DNA of 64,000 nt, from assembly GCA_019359315.1 (NCBI GenBank), contig JAHHHO010000019.1, forward strand, positions 1-64,000, read 5' to 3'. Every line of letters starts with the position of its first letter. Positions within the stretch are counted from its first letter, which is position 1. This document shows positions 62-11,489 of this stretch, in pieces. The position numbers and the translations under genes are program-made. The stretch is from Myxacorys californica WJT36-NPBG1 (GTDB taxonomy: Bacteria; Cyanobacteriota; Cyanobacteriia; Leptolyngbyales; Leptolyngbyaceae). The notes beneath the pieces are model-generated. The model ran no database searches and had not been told where the DNA came from. It worked only from the letters and a program-made list of their open reading frames with translations.

Positions 62-629
62 GGTCAGGCAGGGCAGAAACATCGACGCTATTCTGCTTTT
101 TCTACGGTCAATAAACTAGCCCTGCCCTCTCTATGGATTCTCATGCCTACAGACGAAACAAGCATCTAAAGCACGCGAGGTATAAGTCGGGAACAGTTCC
201 ATTCCAGGCATTCCTTAAGCAGCTGCTCAGGAGCGCGATCGCCCGCTGCCAGACTAGGAGTTTTCATTTTGCCAATGCCGTCCAAATGGCGCAGATTGGC
301 TTGCTCGCTATGGCAGGCATCCTAAATTAAATTATGTTGTGTCGCTTTTAGATACAACACCATTGATTTCTCCGTTTTCAAAACGGATTATTCTAGTCCC
401 TGAATCAGTTCCGCAGACTGTCTCGTTTGCAACGCGAGAGCTCTATTACCAAATAATCTGGGAATAGAGCCGTAGTCGTCATTCTTTCAATCATTTTGCG
501 GTCGTCCGCAATCTGGCAGCAGAGCGATCGCGTCTTGAAAAGTTTGACTACGGCAATCCCCATCGTCAGGTCTATTCGGTCGGTTTGGCGTCGAGAGCCT
601 TCCCCCGCTTCTTTTATTGTCTTGAGAGG
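62..629. other. Mostly non-coding stretch next to the transposase end
   Basis: No open frame here has convincing start, SD and composition. A 65-codon frame on the plus strand (133-330) has no SD and looks accidental. On the minus strand around 345-450 a short uninterrupted segment reads ...CGTDSGTRIIRFENGEI before a stop; it could be the tail of a decayed gene but I cannot name it. Several HIP1 sites (GCGATCGC) lie here. Confidence 0.4.
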
Positions 630-1006: not shown

Positions 1007-1240
1007 ATGGCTGCAATCAACCAACCAACGCTAGCAGAACTTGTGCGGGAAAGCCGGCACCGCCTAGAACTCTCACAAACCAAATTTGCCGCGAAGCTAG
1101 GAGTTTCATTTCAGAGCGTCAATCGCTGGGAGAACGGGCGGACAAATCCCTTGCCCATCGCGTTGAAACGGATTGAGCACTTGCTGCGGCAGATGGGCGA
1201 TACTGGCAAAGACTTGCTCGTCAAATACTTTTCGGAGTGA
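1007..1240 (+). CDS. XRE-family helix-turn-helix regulator (77 aa)
   Basis: Small DNA-binding protein made almost wholly of one lambda-repressor-like HTH: 'LELSQTKFAAKLGVSFQSVNRWENGRTNP' region at about residues 19-47, where helix 2-turn-helix 3 is 'TKFAAKLGVSFQSVNRWE'. The ATG at 1007 gives a compact single-domain protein; a longer frame from 968 would add 13 unconserved residues. The stop at 1240 is 13 nt before the ATG of the giant hybrid kinase, so the two are probably co-transcribed. The regulator may control the operon or respond to the kinase; that link is inference. Confidence 0.75.
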   Translation: MAAINQPTLAELVRESRHRLELSQTKFAAKLGVSFQSVNRWENGRTNPLPIALKRIEHLLRQMGDTGKDLLVKYFSE

Positions 1241-1253
1241 GGACGTAAACCCG

Positions 1254-4200
1254 ATGACTGATGGCCTCCACCGCTCTGGTCTTGCAGACAGAGATTCCCC
1301 GCCAAGTTCTCACCTAGTCACTGAAGCAGATGTCCTCATGACAGGGGTGCTGGCGAACCGCCCTGCCCGAGAGCCTGATTTTGCAGCAGAAAGCCAAGCG
1401 CTTCGCACCCTTGCTCAACACCTAATGGACGAGCCAGAGTCCATGCTGAAGACGCTAGTTCATCTAGCACTTGACCTCTGTCGAGCCGATACAGTGGGGG
1501 TTAACTTACTCGAAACCGCGCCGGATGGTACATCGTTTTTCCGGTGGGTGGCGATCGCTGGTGCGCTAGAAGCGTTGGAGCAAAGCACGACCCCAGGCAA
1601 CTTCAGTCCTTGTGGCACAACCCTTGCTTGTAACCAACCCCAGCTATACAGCTATCCTGAGCGGTTTTTTACCTATTTGTATCACCCACAGTTCTCGGTC
1701 GTGGAAGGATTGCTCATTCCTTTATGCATCAACGATCGCCCTCTGGGGACGCTATGGATTGTGTCGCATCACGAGGATCGGCGTTTTGATCCCGAGGATC
1801 AGCGGCTGATGATGAGCCTGGGAGGCTTTACGGCTTCTGCCCTGCATAGTATGCAACAGATGAGCCAGACGGCGGTAACCGCGTTGCGACACGAGCAGTT
1901 TAATCAGCAGATTCTCGACAGTAGCGATGACTGCATCAAGGTGTTGGACTTAGAGGGACGACTGCTGTTCATGAGCCAGCCAGGGCAAGCGTTGTTGGGC
2001 ATTGAGGATATCACACCCTTTCTCAACACGTCTTGGGCTGAGTTTTGGCAGAGAGCAGATCAGCAAGCGGCAAGCGAGGCGATCGCCAAAGCCAGAGCAG
2101 GCGAAGTTAGTATCTTTCAAGGCTATCGTCCGACGCTCAGGGGCGAACTCAAATGGTGGGATAGCAAGGTGAGTCCCATTCGAGGAGCAGAGGGGCAAGT
2201 TGAACGGCTGTTGTGCGTCTCGCGAGACATTACTGGACGCAAGCAGAGCGAAGACAAACGCCAACAGGCGGAGGAGCGCTTGCGGAAGAGTGAGGAGCGG
2301 CTATCTGCGATCTTCTCACAAGCAGCGGTGGGGCTTTCTGAGATCTCACTAGATGGATATTTTCAGCGGGTTAACGATGAGCTATGCCGGATCTTGGGGC
2401 GATCGCGGGAGGAAATATTAGCGGTAAGCATACCCAATGTCACGCATCCTGAAGACGTGCTCAAAAGCTTAGAAGCTTTTCAACAAGTGGTTGAGACGGG
2501 TAAGCCAGTCTCGTTCGATAAGCGCTACCTGCGCTCGGATGGAACAATCGTCTGGGCTAACAGCAATCTCACGCGCCTCGACGATGAGCAGGGGCACCCG
2601 CGCACCGTGCTGGCAGTCACCGTTGATCTGAGCGAGCGCAAGCAGGCTGAGGCAGCACTGGCAGCGAGCGAGGCAAAGTACCGGACGCTGTTTAGTTCGA
2701 TGGACGAAGGCTATTATCTCGCCGATGTCATTTTTGACGAGAACGACCAGCCGCTTGACATCTTCTATATAGACGCGAATCCAGCGGCAACCCAATTGGT
2801 GGGGCAAGATTTCACCGGACGGTGGCTGAGCGAAATTAACCCAAATTATGAATCCTACTGGTATGAAATCTTCGGTCGCGTAGCTCGCACAGGCAACGGC
2901 GAGCGCTTAGAGCAATACGCTGAGCCGAATCAAAAATGGTATGACTTCTACGTTTTCAAAGTGGGCGGTGAGGACAGTCGCCGCATTGCCATCGTTTTCC
3001 AAGACATTACGGAGCGCAAACGCCGGGAAGCGAATGCTGCCTTCTTACTTGGCATGACTGAAGCGTTCTCACGCCTCTCGACTGCCAATGAGATTATGCA
3101 AGTCGTCGGAGCGAAGGTCGGCGAGTATTTGAAGGTCACCACCTGCAACTTCACAGATGTGGATGAAGCACGGGGCGAAGTAACGGTTCATGACGGTTGG
3201 AATAGCCCGGATGTACCGAGCACGATGGGCACATTTCGCACCACAGAGTACTTGAGTGAGGAGTTTGCGCGGGCAAGCCGTGCCGGGGAGACCTCCGTGA
3301 TTTGTGACACGCAGACTGACCCGCGCACGGATGGACCCGCCTATGCTGCGCTCAATATGTATGCGTTTGTCACGGTTCCGTTTCACCGCAACGGCAGGTG
3401 GACGCATTATATTGCGGTCTGTGATTCGCGCCCGCGCGATTGGCGTGACGACGAAATTGACCTGATTCAGGACATCTCAAACTGCATCTTCCCGCGTCTT
3501 GAACGTGCCCGTGCGGAAGCAGCCCTGCGCGAATCGGAAGCAAAATATCGATCGCTGTTCGAGTCAATGGACGAAGGCTTTTGTATTCTGCAGTTAACGT
3601 TCGATGAGGAGCAAACCCCCATCGATTACCGCTTTATGGAGGTTAACCCCGCTTTCGAGCAGCAAACTGGGCTCAAGAATGCCCTCGGAAGAACTATTCG
3701 CGAGCTTGTACCAGGCATTGAGCCGTTCTGGATTGACCTTTACGGCACAATTGCCCTGACGGGGGAGCCGAAGCGCTTCATGGATTATTCCCACGTCATG
3801 GGTCGATGGTTTGACGTGAATGCTTTCCGCATTGGTGAACCGCATGAGCACAAGGTAGCGCTTCTCTTCAACGACATCACCGATCGCAAACAGGCAGAAG
3901 AGATGACGCGGCGCACCGCCGAATTGGATGCTTTCCGCCTCTCCCTCTCTGACGCACTTCGCCCGCTTGTCGACCCGATAGAGGTTCAAGCAACTGCCAG
4001 TCGGGTGCTGGGCAAATATCTCAACGCAAATCGCGTGGCATACTTCGAGGTTCGCGGCACGGATTACGTGGTTGAGCGCGATTACGTCAACGGTGCCGCT
4101 GCCCTTGCTGGTGGCTACCCCATTGATTCGTTCGGACCCAAGCTGCTTGCAGCGTACTGTGCGGGTCGCACTGTGTGTGTGCCGGATGTGTCAACCGACG

Positions 4201-6101
4201 CCAACCTGTCCCTGACTCAGCAATCCGCTTACGCTGCCATCCAGATTGGTGCTTATATTGGCATCCCGCTAGTTAAAGGCGGCGAGTTCGTCGCAGGTTT
4301 GGCAGTCCACACGTCCGAACCGCGAGCTTGGGCAGAGGATGAAGTGGCGCTAGCGGAAGAAGTTGCCGAGCGAACTTGGGCAGCAGTCGATCGCGCCCGC
4401 GCCGAAGCGATTGTCGCAGCAGACCTCCAAGATACGCAGCGACTCCGTGAACTGGGAGCACGGCTTGTAACTGAAGGTGACATTCAAACGCTGTACCAAG
4501 AGATTTTGTCTACGGCGATCGCGATCACCGAGGCAGATGCTGGCACGGTGCAAATCTTCGATGGAGCGACGCAGGATCTGGTGCTGCTCGCCACGCAGGG
4601 CTTTGAACAAACGATGGTCGAGCATTTCCACCGGGTGAATGCAAGTTTTAATACGTCCTGCGGTATTGCCCTTAGGACAGGGATTCGTAGCTTCGTTGAT
4701 TTCGATGTGCCAGAGAGTGAAGACCCCAGCGGTGCAATGCGACTGCATGTGGAGGCTGGGTATCTCTCCGCGCAGTCCACCCCGTTGACCACCCGTGCAG
4801 GCAGACTGATCGGCATGGTTTCAACCCATTGGCATGAACACCACCGACCGAGCGAACGCGAGTTGCGGTTTCTGGATCTGCTAGCTCGCCAAGCCGCTGA
4901 CCTGATTGAACAGCGGCAGACCATTGCCGAGCGGGAACAACTCCTGACCCGCGAGCAAGCCGCCCGCGTTGAAGCTGATCGCGCCAATCGGATCAAAGAT
5001 GAGTTTTTGGCAGTGCTTTCCCACGAATTGCGATCGCCGCTTAATCCGATTTTGGGCTGGTCAAAACTCTTGCAGAACGGCAAGCTAGACCCTGACAAAA
5101 CCCAGCAAGCATTGCAGACGATCGAACGCAATGCCAAACTGCAATCGGAATTGATTGAAGATCTGCTGGATGTTTCCCGGATTCTCCAAGGCAAGCTCAA
5201 CCTGAATGCTAGGCCGCTCAATTTGGTCTCCATCATTCGAGCCGCAATGGAAACGGTCCGGCTGGCGGCAGAAGCCAAGTCAATCAAAGTAAAGACAAGC
5301 CTAGAACTGGAGATGGGTCTGGTTTTTGGAGATGCCACTCGGTTGCAGCAAGTGATTTGGAATCTGCTCTCCAATGCGGTCAAGTTCACGCCCGAAGGGG
5401 GGCAGGTGAACATCCAATTGGAGTGCACTGACTCTTACGCCCACATTACGGTCAGCGATACTGGGCAGGGAATTGCGCCTGACTTTCTGCCCTATGTGTT
5501 TGACTACTTCCGGCAAGCCAACGCGACCACGACCCGAAAGTTCGGTGGACTGGGATTAGGGCTGGCGATCGTGCGGCATTTAGTCGAACTACATGGAGGC
5601 ACAGTCGGAGTCGAAAGCCTAGGGGTTGGGCTGGGTGCAACTTTTACCGTCAGACTTCCACTGATGCCCACCCAGGTGATCGCCAATCAGAACCGTCCAT
5701 CGTCAGAGCTATCTTCTAATCTGAACGGTGTTCAAGTTTTGGTTGTGGATGATGAACCAGATTCACGGGAGTTTGTGGCGTTTGTGCTAGAGCAAGCGGG
5801 AGCAAGCGTGCTCACCGCAACAACTGCCGATGAAGCATTGGCCCTGCTGATGCAATCAAAGCCAACTATTTTGCTGAGTGACATTGGGATGCCAGACATG
5901 GATGGCTACATGCTGATGCAACAGGTGAGAGCGTTGCCGCCAGAGCAAGGTGGACGAGTCCGAGCGATCGCCCTCACTGCTTATGCTGGCGACTTCAACC
6001 AGCAACAAGCCCTGCAAGCTGGATTTCAACAGCATGTCTCAAAACCAATCGAACCAGAGAGATTAATTCAGGTGATTTCTAGCCTGATTAAGTCTGCTTA
6101 A
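1254..6101 (+). CDS. Multi-PAS/GAF hybrid sensor histidine kinase (1615 aa)
   Basis: Large cytosolic signalling kinase with no membrane segments. Rough domain order: GAF (45-200), three PAS (215-335, 345-475, 480-600), GAF (610-765), PAS (775-890), two GAF (900-1050, 1065-1225), HisKA with the phospho-acceptor His in SHELRSPLNPILGW (about 1256), HATPase_c with N box (NLLSNAVKFTPEGG) and G boxes (DTGQGIAP, GGLGLGLAI), and a C-terminal receiver whose acceptor Asp lies in LLSDIGMPDMDGY (about 1543). I chose ATG 1254 because it follows GGAGTGAGGA and sits just after the XRE gene; the frame is open further upstream but would overlap that gene. PAS copies 3 and 4 resemble each other (SMDEGYYL/SMDEGFCI), suggesting internal duplication. 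The ligand is unknown; the GAFs show no obvious phytochrome-type chromophore Cys that I could confirm. Confidence 0.9.
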   Translation: MTDGLHRSGLADRDSPPSSHLVTEADVLMTGVLANRPAREPDFAAESQALRTLAQHLMDEPESMLKTLVHLALDLCRADTVGVNLLETAPDGTSFFRWVAIAGALEALEQSTTPGNFSPCGTTLACNQPQLYSYPERFFTYLYHPQFSVVEGLLIPLCINDRPLGTLWIVSHHEDRRFDPEDQRLMMSLGGFTASALHSMQQMSQTAVTALRHEQFNQQILDSSDDCIKVLDLEGRLLFMSQPGQALLGIEDITPFLNTSWAEFWQRADQQAASEAIAKARAGEVSIFQGYRPTLRGELKWWDSKVSPIRGAEGQVERLLCVSRDITGRKQSEDKRQQAEERLRKSEERLSAIFSQAAVGLSEISLDGYFQRVNDELCRILGRSREEILAVSIPNVTHPEDVLKSLEAFQQVVETGKPVSFDKRYLRSDGTIVWANSNLTRLDDEQGHPRTVLAVTVDLSERKQAEAALAASEAKYRTLFSSMDEGYYLADVIFDENDQPLDIFYIDANPAATQLVGQDFTGRWLSEINPNYESYWYEIFGRVARTGNGERLEQYAEPNQKWYDFYVFKVGGEDSRRIAIVFQDITERKRREANAAFLLGMTEAFSRLSTANEIMQVVGAKVGEYLKVTTCNFTDVDEARGEVTVHDGWNSPDVPSTMGTFRTTEYLSEEFARASRAGETSVICDTQTDPRTDGPAYAALNMYAFVTVPFHRNGRWTHYIAVCDSRPRDWRDDEIDLIQDISNCIFPRLERARAEAALRESEAKYRSLFESMDEGFCILQLTFDEEQTPIDYRFMEVNPAFEQQTGLKNALGRTIRELVPGIEPFWIDLYGTIALTGEPKRFMDYSHVMGRWFDVNAFRIGEPHEHKVALLFNDITDRKQAEEMTRRTAELDAFRLSLSDALRPLVDPIEVQATASRVLGKYLNANRVAYFEVRGTDYVVERDYVNGAAALAGGYPIDSFGPKLLAAYCAGRTVCVPDVSTDANLSLTQQSAYAAIQIGAYIGIPLVKGGEFVAGLAVHTSEPRAWAEDEVALAEEVAERTWAAVDRARAEAIVAADLQDTQRLRELGARLVTEGDIQTLYQEILSTAIAITEADAGTVQIFDGATQDLVLLATQGFEQTMVEHFHRVNASFNTSCGIALRTGIRSFVDFDVPESEDPSGAMRLHVEAGYLSAQSTPLTTRAGRLIGMVSTHWHEHHRPSERELRFLDLLARQAADLIEQRQTIAEREQLLTREQAARVEADRANRIKDEFLAVLSHELRSPLNPILGWSKLLQNGKLDPDKTQQALQTIERNAKLQSELIEDLLDVSRILQGKLNLNARPLNLVSIIRAAMETVRLAAEAKSIKVKTSLELEMGLVFGDATRLQQVIWNLLSNAVKFTPEGGQVNIQLECTDSYAHITVSDTGQGIAPDFLPYVFDYFRQANATTTRKFGGLGLGLAIVRHLVELHGGTVGVESLGVGLGATFTVRLPLMPTQVIANQNRPSSELSSNLNGVQVLVVDDEPDSREFVAFVLEQAGASVLTATTADEALALLMQSKPTILLSDIGMPDMDGYMLMQQVRALPPEQGGRVRAIALTAYAGDFNQQQALQAGFQQHVSKPIEPERLIQVISSLIKSA

Positions 6102-6490: not shown

Positions 6491-6610
6491 TTGTGGAGAT
6501 GGAAAACAGCGCAATCGCGGCGTTTACAGCAACTCCTCTGCATCAGGTGGGTGTTTCCCTTAGCTGAATATCGCTAGGCTTACAGCAAATCATTGTGGAA
6601 CTGCTCAGTA

Positions 6611-8998
6611 ATGCCCTCTGGAGAGTTTAAAGAAGCCGCACTCAGCGATCAGGAAGTTACGACGTTGTGGAACACGTTCACCGGGTTAGATGCAAATGGA
6701 GCGCGAGCAAGCAGTTCTGCCAAGCGCCGCACCATCTCACTCGCTGACCTAAACCAGGTGATGCGATCCTTAGGACACACACCCACCGAAGCAGAATTAC
6801 ACCACTTGATGCAAGAGGTCGATCAAGACGCCTCTGGCACGATCGACTTTGAGGAATTTCGAGCCTCCATGGTGTCAAGGCACGGTGATCGTACCAGTCG
6901 GCTCAGGCTCGCCTTTAGCATGCTGGATGAAGATGGCAACGGTCAGATTAGCGCCGATGAACTGCGTCAGGTGATGCATCCGTTTGGGTTGACCGATGCC
7001 GAACTCGCCGAGATGATTCAAGAAGTGGACCGCGACGGCGATCACGCCATCAACTTCGAGGAGTTCTGTCAACTGGTGGTGCAGGAGTCATCCCACACAA
7101 CGGGCTATAAAGACAGGCTCAAGTTCTCGAATCATTCCTCAGTGCCTGATGCAGAGCACCGCTCACAGACTTCTAGCACCGCTCACCCTACGCCGCTTGA
7201 ACCCGGTTCCAAGACCATCACACCCCACCAGCAAGGGACGTCTCGCCTACAGATGCAGAGCGGGCTATTTCGGTTGATTCAGGGTGCGGCTTACCGTTGC
7301 TTCCGCGAAAGCTTCTGCGCTAACCATGAAACGCATTTGCGCGTCAAAAATCTACCTTACCGCATCACCGATTTTGTATCGTTTGTCGAAGGTGCGATCG
7401 CGTTATATAAAACATTAGGCATCGTCGAAGCGGCGTGTTATCCCATATTGGATGCGCTCGTAACCTCAATCACCGAGGAGTATGCCCGGCTTAAATTCCG
7501 CATCCAGCACTGGGAAAGCGTGGAAAAAACTCCAGAGATGTTAGCCACCCAGCAAGCGATGTTAGCGGCACGAGAAAAATCTGTAACGGTTCAAGAAAAG
7601 TTTACGGCGGGCGTTGAGTTTGCCATCACGCTGAAAAAAAAGCAGCTCAGCTTGGCAGACGTAGCAGACGGTGTACTAGCCATTCACGAACTCGATCGCT
7701 TGAGAAAACAGGAGGAGCAGGAAGACATCGCTCCAGTTACTTCCTCTGACGACGCTCCCAAAAGGTACTTGAGCCAGTGGAACCGAGTGATTTTGTCAGA
7801 CACATCTGAGGCGATCGATGGAGCAATGATGCCCGTTGCATATTGGTACGAAGACTTTATGCCGAAGCTGCTAGCCGCGTTTAGTGTAAACACGGCGGCA
7901 GACGTCCAGTCAAACACCCAACCGGTCGAATCAGAGTTAGACCAGTGGTACGAGAGCACCAAAGCAGCCGGGGAGTTCTATCCCTTTGGAATGGATGTGG
8001 CAGAAGGATTTTTAAGCTGCACGGCAGGCCAAAAACTGATGCTTAAGCAGGCATGGCGGTTAACGCGATTGTATCTCAATGGGGTGCAAAAACGGCGTGA
8101 ACGTGTGGAGTGTGGGCGCGAATCTGGCACCCTTTCGCACTACGTCGCGTTTATCGATGTCCATCTCAATCAGCGAGGTATGCAAACGGCTGAGATGCGG
8201 CTCAGCTATCCTTACTATCTCGGTCCTGGGGTGTGGCGGTTTTTTCACACCACGGCTGAAATCGTCTGCACAACCCCAATCGAGCAGCAGATCGGGATGG
8301 TTGCCCAAATCAAGGAGTTCTTCCAGACGTTTGCCGCTCTGTATCCCTGCCCCTATTGCCGTCACCATCTCAACCTGTATGTTGTGCAAAATCGAGAGGT
8401 AGAGCTGTACCCGCTGGAATATCTGATGTTGGGGCGCGATCCTCAAATCACGGACTTTGTGGTGTCGATCGAGGCTAAACTCTCCACTTTAGTAGATGGA
8501 GTATCGCTGCGCTTATTTTTTTGGAAGCTACACAACACAGTTTCTGCATCGATCTCGCGCACTGAAGCGTGGTATCGCCGCGATGAAAAGGCGTTCTACA
8601 CGAGCCGCTATTATCCGAGTTTGGATGCCGAACTTGCCTACGCTCAAGCCCTCGGACAGAACTATATGACTTGCGAGCAGGTTTCTCGGCTCTACGGACT
8701 GCTTAAACTAACATCCCGGTTATCAGGACTGAGACTGGCCCTCAAAAAGCTATTAGACAGGAGAAATCATGGAGGTAGCAAAGAGATATGTCTTGTTGCT
8801 CAAACCTATATACAGGAGTTAGATGAGGCACTGCTGAGCGGGCAGTTTTTACAAGAAATGTACCGCTTTGATTCTGAGTTAGTTGATCAGGTACCACAGG
8901 TCACACTGGTAGATGAAGGGTTTGCGCGAAGTGGTGCATTTACAGAAACGGTGGGTAGCAGAACATGGGGTTCTGCTACAAGAAGTTTTGAAGGGTAG
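6611..8998 (+). CDS. Calmodulin-like EF-hand protein fused to an Erv/ALR-like CxxC domain (795 aa)
   Basis: The first 160 residues are strikingly calmodulin-like: a degenerate EF1 with an expanded loop (27-43), then canonical loops EF2 at 71-82 (DQDASGTIDFEE), EF3 at 106-117 (DEDGNGQISADE) and EF4 at 140-151 (DRDGDHAINFEE). The helix before EF2, VMRSLGHTPTEAEL, is nearly that of eukaryotic calmodulin. After a long helical middle part, residues about 535-610 carry an Erv1/ALR-like signature: a W..FH segment (GVWRFFHTTAEIVC) and YPCPYCRHHL with C580 and C583, typical of FAD-dependent sulfhydryl oxidases. No signal peptide or transmembrane helix is seen. The ATG at 6611 is preferred over a TTG six codons upstream; no strong SD. 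Role inferred: calcium-responsive thiol oxidase or redox protein. The gene lies between two 39-bp direct repeats. Confidence 0.7.
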   Translation: MPSGEFKEAALSDQEVTTLWNTFTGLDANGARASSSAKRRTISLADLNQVMRSLGHTPTEAELHHLMQEVDQDASGTIDFEEFRASMVSRHGDRTSRLRLAFSMLDEDGNGQISADELRQVMHPFGLTDAELAEMIQEVDRDGDHAINFEEFCQLVVQESSHTTGYKDRLKFSNHSSVPDAEHRSQTSSTAHPTPLEPGSKTITPHQQGTSRLQMQSGLFRLIQGAAYRCFRESFCANHETHLRVKNLPYRITDFVSFVEGAIALYKTLGIVEAACYPILDALVTSITEEYARLKFRIQHWESVEKTPEMLATQQAMLAAREKSVTVQEKFTAGVEFAITLKKKQLSLADVADGVLAIHELDRLRKQEEQEDIAPVTSSDDAPKRYLSQWNRVILSDTSEAIDGAMMPVAYWYEDFMPKLLAAFSVNTAADVQSNTQPVESELDQWYESTKAAGEFYPFGMDVAEGFLSCTAGQKLMLKQAWRLTRLYLNGVQKRRERVECGRESGTLSHYVAFIDVHLNQRGMQTAEMRLSYPYYLGPGVWRFFHTTAEIVCTTPIEQQIGMVAQIKEFFQTFAALYPCPYCRHHLNLYVVQNREVELYPLEYLMLGRDPQITDFVVSIEAKLSTLVDGVSLRLFFWKLHNTVSASISRTEAWYRRDEKAFYTSRYYPSLDAELAYAQALGQNYMTCEQVSRLYGLLKLTSRLSGLRLALKKLLDRRNHGGSKEICLVAQTYIQELDEALLSGQFLQEMYRFDSELVDQVPQVTLVDEGFARSGAFTETVGSRTWGSATRSFEG

Positions 8999-9122: not shown

Positions 9123-9317
9123 ATGAGCGAGCCAAAGCCGACGATCGCGGCTAGAGTCTCGCTCGAAATTAAACAGCAGGTCGCTCGCTTGGCGGAGAAC
9201 ACCTACATCATCGCATCGAAAATTGTTGAGGCAGCGATGGAAAAGTTTCTGGGTATCCAGACTGGGGAAGGTCCGTCATCCCAAATCAATGAACATACGG
9301 GTGGAAGCATAAACTGA
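9123..9317 (+). CDS. Small ribbon-helix-helix-like protein (64 aa)
   Basis: Reads MSEPKPTIAARVSLEIKQQV and continues with a helix 'ARLAENTYIIASKIVEAAMEKF'. The pattern beta strand (TIAARVS) then two helices is that of ribbon-helix-helix/CopG-type DNA-binding proteins, often antitoxins or plasmid-copy regulators. The tail after residue 45 is polar and probably disordered. A GGAATGAGG SD sits about 3 nt before the ATG. No partner toxin follows; the next feature is direct-repeat copy B. It may regulate the EF-hand gene upstream, which is inference. Confidence 0.5.
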   Translation: MSEPKPTIAARVSLEIKQQVARLAENTYIIASKIVEAAMEKFLGIQTGEGPSSQINEHTGGSIN

Positions 9318-10287: not shown

Positions 10288-11337
10288 TCAAGCGGGTGGC
10301 AGTTTTAAATCTTGCAGAGTTGGCACGTCTTTCAAAAATGCTCCGATCAGCAGTAATGATGTGTGAGGATTTAGAGTTCCGGTAGGGGTAATATTGTGCG
10401 ATCGCTGAAACGCTTTCACAGCAAGTTTGAAGTCCTGATCCTCATACCCCAATCGTTTGAGGTAGTCCCCCGCCTGAGTATCGCTCAACAACAGCACTTC
10501 CTGCGGACGATAGATCGGCACGTATTGCTGACGCCAAATTTTGCCAAATTCTAAGCGATTGAGCAGATAGATTTTTCCACTCGATGGATCACCGATCGCG
10601 GCGCGTTCTGTATCCATGCCTAGTAAAGCAACCGCATGAGGCAATTTGCGATCGCCATCCATCAGCCAAACCGCTAGCACCCCCGGACGATTGATCAGTT
10701 GCATCTGCTCCCATGTAGGCGATAGCTCGATGCCCTCCAAACCAAAGTGCTGTGCAGCTTCGATGACTTGAGGCATGCTCGTTCCTAAGCGACTGGTTCT
10801 GGCGTATTGTGCCACACTCACTTCTGTCGCGTCTTGAATTTTCCAAAGGCGCAAGACGGTCGCCAGTGCTGACGGCGCACAGCTTGTCATGGAGGTTTGT
10901 TTAAATACTCCATTGGGCTGCAAATTGTTGGTTAATTCTCCGTAGATGGGAGACAAAATATAACTTTCAGCACTGCTGAATCCGCCAATTCCGACAATAG
11001 TGAGTGCGACAATGGTGAGGAGTTGACGACGCGCTGACTTTTGAGTGATTGCGTAGGCAATGCCGCAAAAGCCTAGAAAGCTGATCCGAATGAACGTCCA
11101 GCTTGTTTGCAGCCCGTAGACGCGCCAGTCTTGTGGAAAAAGTTGGAGTTGAGGAATATTGAGCGCAAACACAATGAGCAGAATGTAGAGTCCTAAAAAT
11201 AGGAGAGAAACCGCATTTTTACCTTGAAAAATATTTTCAGCGGTAACGCCGCGATCGCCCAACGATCGCCCAATTTTTGTTCCTCCCCAAAAGCACAATC
11301 CTCCCAGCACGAGAGTGGCCAATACCTCTAACATCAT
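10288..11337 (-). CDS. C39-like cysteine peptidase with peptidoglycan-binding tail (349 aa)
   Basis: Four hydrophobic helices in the first 120 residues anchor it in the membrane. The central domain has a papain-like/C39 triad: Cys153 in MTSCAPSA, His near 234 in LPHAVALLG and Asp near 252 in GDPSSGK. The C-terminus (about 295-345) is a peptidoglycan-binding-domain-like repeat (RLGYEDQDFKLAVKAFQ..). C39 domains classically cleave double-glycine leader peptides in bacteriocin exporters; here there is no ABC module, so the substrate is unknown. The gene is 2 kb from a putative RiPP precursor but across aspS, so a link is speculative. Start chosen at the ATG of MMLEVLATL, the beginning of the first membrane helix; the frame is open 31 codons further. 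Confidence 0.7.
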   Translation of the reverse strand: MMLEVLATLVLGGLCFWGGTKIGRSLGDRGVTAENIFQGKNAVSLLFLGLYILLIVFALNIPQLQLFPQDWRVYGLQTSWTFIRISFLGFCGIAYAITQKSARRQLLTIVALTIVGIGGFSSAESYILSPIYGELTNNLQPNGVFKQTSMTSCAPSALATVLRLWKIQDATEVSVAQYARTSRLGTSMPQVIEAAQHFGLEGIELSPTWEQMQLINRPGVLAVWLMDGDRKLPHAVALLGMDTERAAIGDPSSGKIYLLNRLEFGKIWRQQYVPIYRPQEVLLLSDTQAGDYLKRLGYEDQDFKLAVKAFQRSHNITPTGTLNPHTSLLLIGAFLKDVPTLQDLKLPPA

Positions 11338-11489
11338 GAACTTGGTTTCTGATACGTCTTCTCTATGATTCCCCGCGCAATTGCTGGCATAATGGGGAAG
11401 TTTTCGCGATTTGTCGGAACAATGTCGCAATTGTTCTGACCATCGCTAGACTTAAATCTAGAAGTCCCCTTTTACTCTCACGTTCTGCT

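Follow-up and report, generated by a model that had tools for sequence, protein, structure and literature searches.

A calmodulin-like domain and an Erv/ALR domain in one protein

The window analysed here, a 64,000-nucleotide stretch of Myxacorys californica DNA, encodes a 795-residue protein in which a calmodulin-like domain is fused, by way of a middle helical region, to an Erv/ALR domain. The fusion is real and is found repeatedly, rather than being a one-off: the open reading frame (6611..8998, + strand) carries both domains and has homologues at 51 other loci. It begins with an ATG at 6611, from which all residue numbers are counted here (a TTG lies in frame at 6593), and its stop codon ends at 8998. 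A Pfam scan of the protein returned EF-hand_7 with an E value of 7.2e-24 and Evr1_Alr with 35.9 bits (curated cut-off 27.6). The first-pass annotation, made from the DNA letters, had proposed that EF-hands are joined to an Erv/ALR domain at this locus, and both Pfam domains are indeed found in the one reading frame.

The reading favoured here, to which I give an even chance, is that the protein is a flavin thiol oxidase of the cytosol, controlled by Ca2+ via the calmodulin domain that it carries. Cyanobacteria show Ca2+ transients, and few proteins are known to read them. Joining a sensor covalently to a thiol oxidase would create a direct link from Ca2+ to redox control, an oxidative counterpart of calredoxin.

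The full-length AF2 model has a mean pLDDT of 69.7 and a pTM of 0.67, and residues 205-765 modelled alone reach 74.0 and 0.79. The linker between the calmodulin-like domain and the remainder (residues 159-204; 7085..7222, +) has a pLDDT below 50 and is probably flexible. A thioredoxin domain is absent from the 14 Pfam families matching the protein with E up to 10, and six relatives likewise lack a thioredoxin match (Pfam, E up to 0.01). Since the maximum 19-residue hydropathy mean is 1.55, there is no clear transmembrane segment. The protein would reside in the cytosol, which in bacteria is reducing and an unusual place for an Erv enzyme.

The Erv/ALR domain and its redox motif

The Erv/ALR domain occupies residues about 538-655 (8222..8575, +), and helices at 688-744 may complete it. 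The slice alone scores 40.6 bits against Evr1_Alr (PF04777), again for a curated cut-off of 27.6, and 28 of the 28 family members scanned match this Pfam family (E up to 0.01). A profile search of the PDB with the Erv slice finds Arabidopsis Erv1 (4.2e-6), yeast Erv1 (5.7e-6), Erv2 and ALR, and Erv/ALR proteins make up 13 of the 14 matches obtained at an E limit of 10. In the full AF2 model, helices are predicted in the Erv part at 539-554, 557-577, 581-587 and 630-651, with CPYC opening the third and a local pLDDT of 54-76 near the motif. VIA-align superposes the 205-765 model on Arabidopsis Erv1 with Z 7.6 and rmsd 2.5 over 100 of 101 residues, spanning 532-752. These data uphold the earlier proposal of an Erv1/ALR-like C-terminus with a CPYC site. 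The stretch singled out at that time, residues 500-620, does contain Erv1-like helices with CPYC in the model, but it ends before the HN at 641-642.

The redox motif CPYC (residues 580-583; 8348..8359, +) retains both cysteines in all 63 rows of a 65-row alignment that reach it. W542, H546, H586, H641 and N642 are invariant in a 44-row alignment, H641-N642 (8531..8536, +) being the HN of the HN-x-V motif known from Erv proteins. These conserved residues (W, H and HN) are presumably the FAD contacts, in which case the domain would bind FAD. The HNTVN of Arabidopsis Erv1 reads HNTVS in the window protein and in nearly all its relatives, as might be expected if the Erv-like fold were catalytically dead and served as a scaffold. 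Given the invariance of CPYC, W542, H546, H641 and N642, such a loss of function appears very improbable. The protein is probably active as an oxidase.

By its profile membership, its CPYC and the superposition of its model on Arabidopsis Erv1, the window protein resembles Erv1/ALR; it differs in being much larger, with the EF-hands and the middle region added. Known Erv enzymes carry a shuttle cysteine pair. In the 65-row alignment no second pair of cysteines is shared by every row, C276 (61/65), C470 (57/64) and C727 (52/62) being common. As the only universal cysteines are those of CPYC, a shuttle pair of this kind is not evident. This feature and the missing thioredoxin match would suit a redox sensor, or a Ca2+-triggered source of H2O2, in which electrons pass from CPYC and the flavin to O2 or another acceptor instead of disulphides being donated; the flavin oxidase NOX5 provides a precedent for Ca2+ control. 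The CPYC region nevertheless resembles thiol oxidases, as the predominance of Erv/ALR among its PDB profile matches indicates, and this alternative is quite unlikely.

The calmodulin-like domain and its EF-hand loops

The calmodulin-like domain, delimited by Pfam, phmmer and alignment, comprises residues 8-158 (6632..7084, +), with predicted helices between 13 and 155. In a phmmer search of the PDB, the N-terminus matches calmodulin chains over ~120 residues (E about 1e-28) with the calmodulin spacing and helix pattern, and in the structure comparison of the full model most calmodulin rows are 41-48% identical. The loops of EF2 (residues 71-82; 6821..6856, +) and EF3 (residues 106-117; 6926..6961, +) are canonical, and that of EF4 (residues 140-151; 7028..7063, +) is canonical at positions 1, 3, 5 and 12. 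The EF1 loop (residues 27-46; 6689..6748, +) is disrupted by an insertion of 8 residues that is missing from the aligned relatives, most of which have a canonical 12-residue loop. The calmodulin layout recognized in the first-pass annotation is thus present, but of the four EF-hands that it counted, the window copy has three with intact loops.

For the family as a whole, a loop was scored as canonical if it had D at position 1, D/N/S at 3, D/N/S/G at 5 and E/D at 12, position 6 being ignored. By this measure 39 of 52 rows have four canonical loops, 6 (the window copy included) have three and 7 have fewer. The remaining 13 of the 65 rows were left out, 11 having one or more loops cut off by the end of the locus or contig and two (L067 and L026, the latter also cut) having a loop shorter than 11 residues. 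The EF-hands are degenerate in L012, L013, L024 and L026 and partly so in the Pseudomonadota members and L082; Ca2+ control therefore cannot be universal. The first four belong to a small-genome cyanobacterial group that retains the catalytic part despite its degenerate EF-hands, and they are possibly a natural Ca2+-blind version of the protein.

The persistence of CPYC and the middle region in members with degenerate EF-hands is what one would expect if the thiol oxidase were permanently on, with EF-hands that contribute to stability, Ca2+ buffering or partner binding and not to gating; Erv enzymes are not known to need Ca2+. A full set of canonical loops in most rows, followed by a flexible linker, suits a sensor better than a scaffold, and on balance I find permanent activity somewhat unlikely.

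A possible pseudo-Erv domain in the middle region

Residues 205-504 (7223..8122, +) form a helical region that has no significant sequence match in the PDB and whose Pfam matches are weak and inconsistent (the commonest occurs in 10 of 27 members, best E 0.0015). Foldseek likewise found nothing significant in the PDB for residues 205-765 (best E 2.0). A second look was taken with VIA-align, which compared the 205-765 model with 259 chains already ranked by Foldseek. Seven QSOX chains came first, with Z from 12.1 to 10.5 on a scale where helical bundles can reach up to about 13 through their common arrangement. They align over 217-243 residues with an rmsd of 4.2-4.6 and span nearly the whole slice, the middle region included; unrelated chains follow at Z 8.6 or less, and baculovirus P33 has a Z of 7.2. 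Because the seven QSOX chains top this ranking, which is moderately persuasive, residues 205 to about 500 may be a pseudo-Erv domain, as judged by fold comparison. Residues 205-765 as a whole may then be a QSOX-like catalytic half in which calmodulin takes the place of the QSOX thioredoxin domain. The first-pass annotation makes no mention of a QSOX-like middle region.

Two related ideas were discarded at the level of sequence. An internal duplication relating the middle region to the Erv domain is not apparent by hhalign (E 0.36, no similarity), and a profile (A3) that finds Erv1, Erv2 and ALR finds zero QSOX chains, so that membership of the QSOX family by sequence was rejected. In the available text of PMC3616962, QSOX is defined by the combination of Trx and Erv domains, a pseudo-Erv domain is described, and the Trx-Erv fusion is called unique to the eukaryotic cell. 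The window protein resembles QSOX in the CxxC of its Erv part and may resemble it in the pseudo-Erv plus Erv fold suggested for 205-765; it differs in being bacterial and in carrying a calmodulin-like domain where QSOX has thioredoxin. If the predicted fold is right, a QSOX-like catalytic half would exist outside eukaryotes.

A candidate calmodulin target within the protein

The structure comparison of the full model also drew attention to a helix of the middle region, residues 327-344 (VQEKFTAGVEFAITLKKK; 7589..7642, +), as a low-confidence candidate for an intramolecular calmodulin target. Several EF-hand chains align over the model range 93..344, among them the calmodulin/connexin-36 peptide hybrid 2n6a and 5e37, titled a redox protein from Chlamydomonas and presumably calredoxin. 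This range apparently corresponds to the C-lobe together with helix 327-344, the predicted docking being read from the first and last aligned residues alone. The block has a pLDDT of 44-68 in the full AF2 model. F331 and V335 are nearly invariant, and these two residues and the basic tail of the helix are largely kept in members with intact EF-hands. Among 43 rows, 32 combine canonical EF2-EF4 loops with the basic pair, 6 keep the pair despite reduced EF-hands, and 5 have neither. On the tree, the association between EF reduction and loss of the basic pair is not significant (5 independent pairs). Co-loss was accordingly dropped as an argument: the changes go in the same direction in 1-3 of the 5 independent pairs and never in opposite ones, a sample with no power. 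The hypothesis is that helix 327-344 acts as an intramolecular latch for the calmodulin domain.

In the Ca2+-controlled oxidase favoured above, Ca2+ entering the cell would be bound by the EF-hands. The calmodulin domain would then hold the catalytic part differently, most probably by way of helix 327-344, and this change would switch the oxidation of thiols to disulphides, with a protein thiol, thioredoxin or glutathione as substrate and H2O2 as by-product. Ca2+-controlled thiol chemistry, in line with the calcium-controlled disulphide chemistry suggested by the first-pass annotation, can fairly be inferred; as to the sign of control, I lean towards Ca2+ switching the oxidase on. A more specific version, which is tentative, supplies the protein with a calmodulin and also with the helix to which that calmodulin binds, a Ca2+-closed lobe on helix 327-344 of the pseudo-Erv domain gating a cytosolic QSOX-like oxidase. 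Were this true, cyanobacterial Ca2+ transients would be turned directly into disulphides or H2O2, and the protein would be a prokaryotic QSOX-type module with a calcium sensor in place of thioredoxin.

Comparison with known calcium-sensing proteins

Calredoxin of Chlamydomonas, whose activity is critically dependent on Ca2+ according to the available text of PMC4911631, similarly has four EF-hands in a calmodulin fold fused to a thiol redox domain; its redox part is a thioredoxin, for reduction, whereas that of the window protein is Erv and is expected to oxidise. Bacterial calmodulin-like proteins in which EF-hands are combined with redox domains are reported in the portion of PMC7016017 available, where the fusion partners are 7TM, Tic110-like, haem oxygenase, NOS, NADPH oxidase, cNMP-binding, thioredoxin, cytochrome and sulfatase domains. 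Erv is not a partner in that list, and the term "Erv" is absent from the main text of the paper. Another cyanobacterial EF-hand sensor is CSE (Ca2+ sensor EF-hand) of Anabaena, which the accessible part of PMC7065334 describes as the only known Ca2+ sensor in that organism; unlike the window protein, CSE is small, with two putative EF-hands. The source genome itself encodes two small EF-hand pair proteins (79-residue frames, L002 and L003), possibly CSE-like.

Erv1/Alr proteins are noted in Nostocales, Oscillatoriophycideae, Rhizobiales, Rhodobacterales and a few others in PMC10598087, the available portion of which does not mention a fusion. In the open-licence PMC papers searched, no description of a calmodulin-Erv fusion was found. 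The architecture is conserved and its parts are known; to the extent that this literature shows, their combination is undescribed. The first-pass annotation likewise knew of no described bacterial protein joining the two. One homologue already bears the annotation "ERV1/ALR-related protein".

Distribution of the family

A contig scan with the C-terminal 600 residues gave the 51 loci, with best-segment identities of 49-71%. They come mainly from Nostoc, Microcoleus, Tychonema, Scytonema, Rhizonema, Calothrix and relatives, with a few from Pseudomonadota MAGs. Evr1_Alr matches exceed the cut-off in 15 of 386 sampled cyanobacterial genomes (4 of 19 matches, in frames of 22-91 residues, fell below it and were left out) and in none of 14 named control genomes. 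All 15 positives match the family, and 14 of them have frames of 761-843 residues. The fifteenth (L023) is a 362-residue frame with the EF part and a portion of the C-terminal half and without the middle region, probably a decaying gene. The fusion is found in many cyanobacterial genera. Its distribution is patchy, both in this sample and in the genomes of relatives: in a search of 57 further genomes, chosen as relatives of the source genome, only 6 gave matches, all within residues 41-203, and one genus of another family has the gene in 14 of 29 genomes, split over contigs in two.

Outside cyanobacteria, the sample-centre genome is the only one of 385 Alphaproteobacteria with the gene (three more match in the EF part alone), and the same genome is the only one positive for Evr1_Alr among 349 Pseudomonadota. 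Among 72,556 plasmid records a single homologue was found, the one annotated "ERV1/ALR-related protein"; it is 41% identical, with an Erv part over the Pfam cut-off and an EF-hand match below it. Carriage by phages or other viruses was considered and set aside: nothing matched in phages at a limit of E 1, and the five matches (E 5) let in by a limit of 10 were taken as chance; viral contigs either had no pattern match or had pattern matches (49 and 3) that encode no relative.

Two loci have peculiarities of their own. An in-frame stop at position 1702-1704 splits the homologue in L047, reflecting a MAG error or a nonsense change. In Scytonema NIES-4073, a separate 121-residue EF-hand ORF (L068:120-482), 49% identical to the EF region of the window protein, lies ~4.8 kb upstream of the homologue.

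Origin of the gene

One suggestion of the first-pass annotation was that the gene had been acquired from a eukaryote. The breadth of the family among cyanobacterial genera and its ordinary G+C content (51.5% for the gene, 49.2% for the window) speak against this, as does the EF-hand tree, and a recent acquisition is not supported. That tree was built after setting aside 26 of 83 EF domains, namely those of L012, L013, L024 and L026, identical sequences, and copies that were cut or repeated; with calmodulin and calcineurin B added it has 59 rows. Calmodulin clusters outside the family, with four further bacterial EF proteins (97/83). The tree is weak, since its branches are long and eukaryotes contribute just two rows; it does not reject a single clade for the family (p-AU 0.56).

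Identity to calmodulin reaches 57.5% among the family's EF domains, with 52.5% for the window copy and 43% or less for divergent rows. The figure is at most 44% for the seven other bacterial EF proteins that remain after removal of L094, L096 and L097, which are cut copies of family members. Since most family EF domains are nearer to calmodulin than the other bacterial ones are, an exchange long ago, in one direction or the other, may have taken place. The donor of the gene could have been an algal or protist eukaryote or else a giant virus, with later spread among cyanobacteria; this would accord with the confinement of Erv to the fusion family in the sampled cyanobacteria and its near absence from Pseudomonadota. 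The AF2 model of 205-765 also has a relative in BFVD, A0A5K0UAY3 of the giant virus Yasminevirus, a 1140-residue protein named histidine kinase that has this fold in common (Foldseek E 1.6e-18, TM-score by query 0.62, 19% identity); on these model comparisons it is predicted to be the same module in a eukaryotic virus. I consider this origin unlikely, given the points already made and two from the literature: the available text of PMC7016017 argues the opposite direction, with calmodulin deriving from bacteria, and that of PMC10598087 names further bacteria with Erv, such as Pirellula, outside the present sample.

In a quick tree of residues 205-765, three Pseudomonadota copies nest inside the cyanobacterial ones, which may reflect inter-phylum transfer or contaminated MAGs.

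Gene neighbourhood

No operon partner emerged from the 51 loci and the window, since no neighbouring gene cluster occurs in more than 9 of the 52, many of which are short; the larger clusters were other-frame overlaps of the fusion gene itself. Promoter and terminator scans gave matches no more frequent than in shuffled sequences. In the window, the fusion gene is preceded by a hybrid histidine kinase with PAS and GAF domains (1173-6101) and followed by a 64-residue ORF, ribbon-helix-helix-like by eye (9123-9317), and nothing links either to it. A Peptidase_C39-like protein with a peptidoglycan-binding domain is encoded at 10288-11430 on the - strand.
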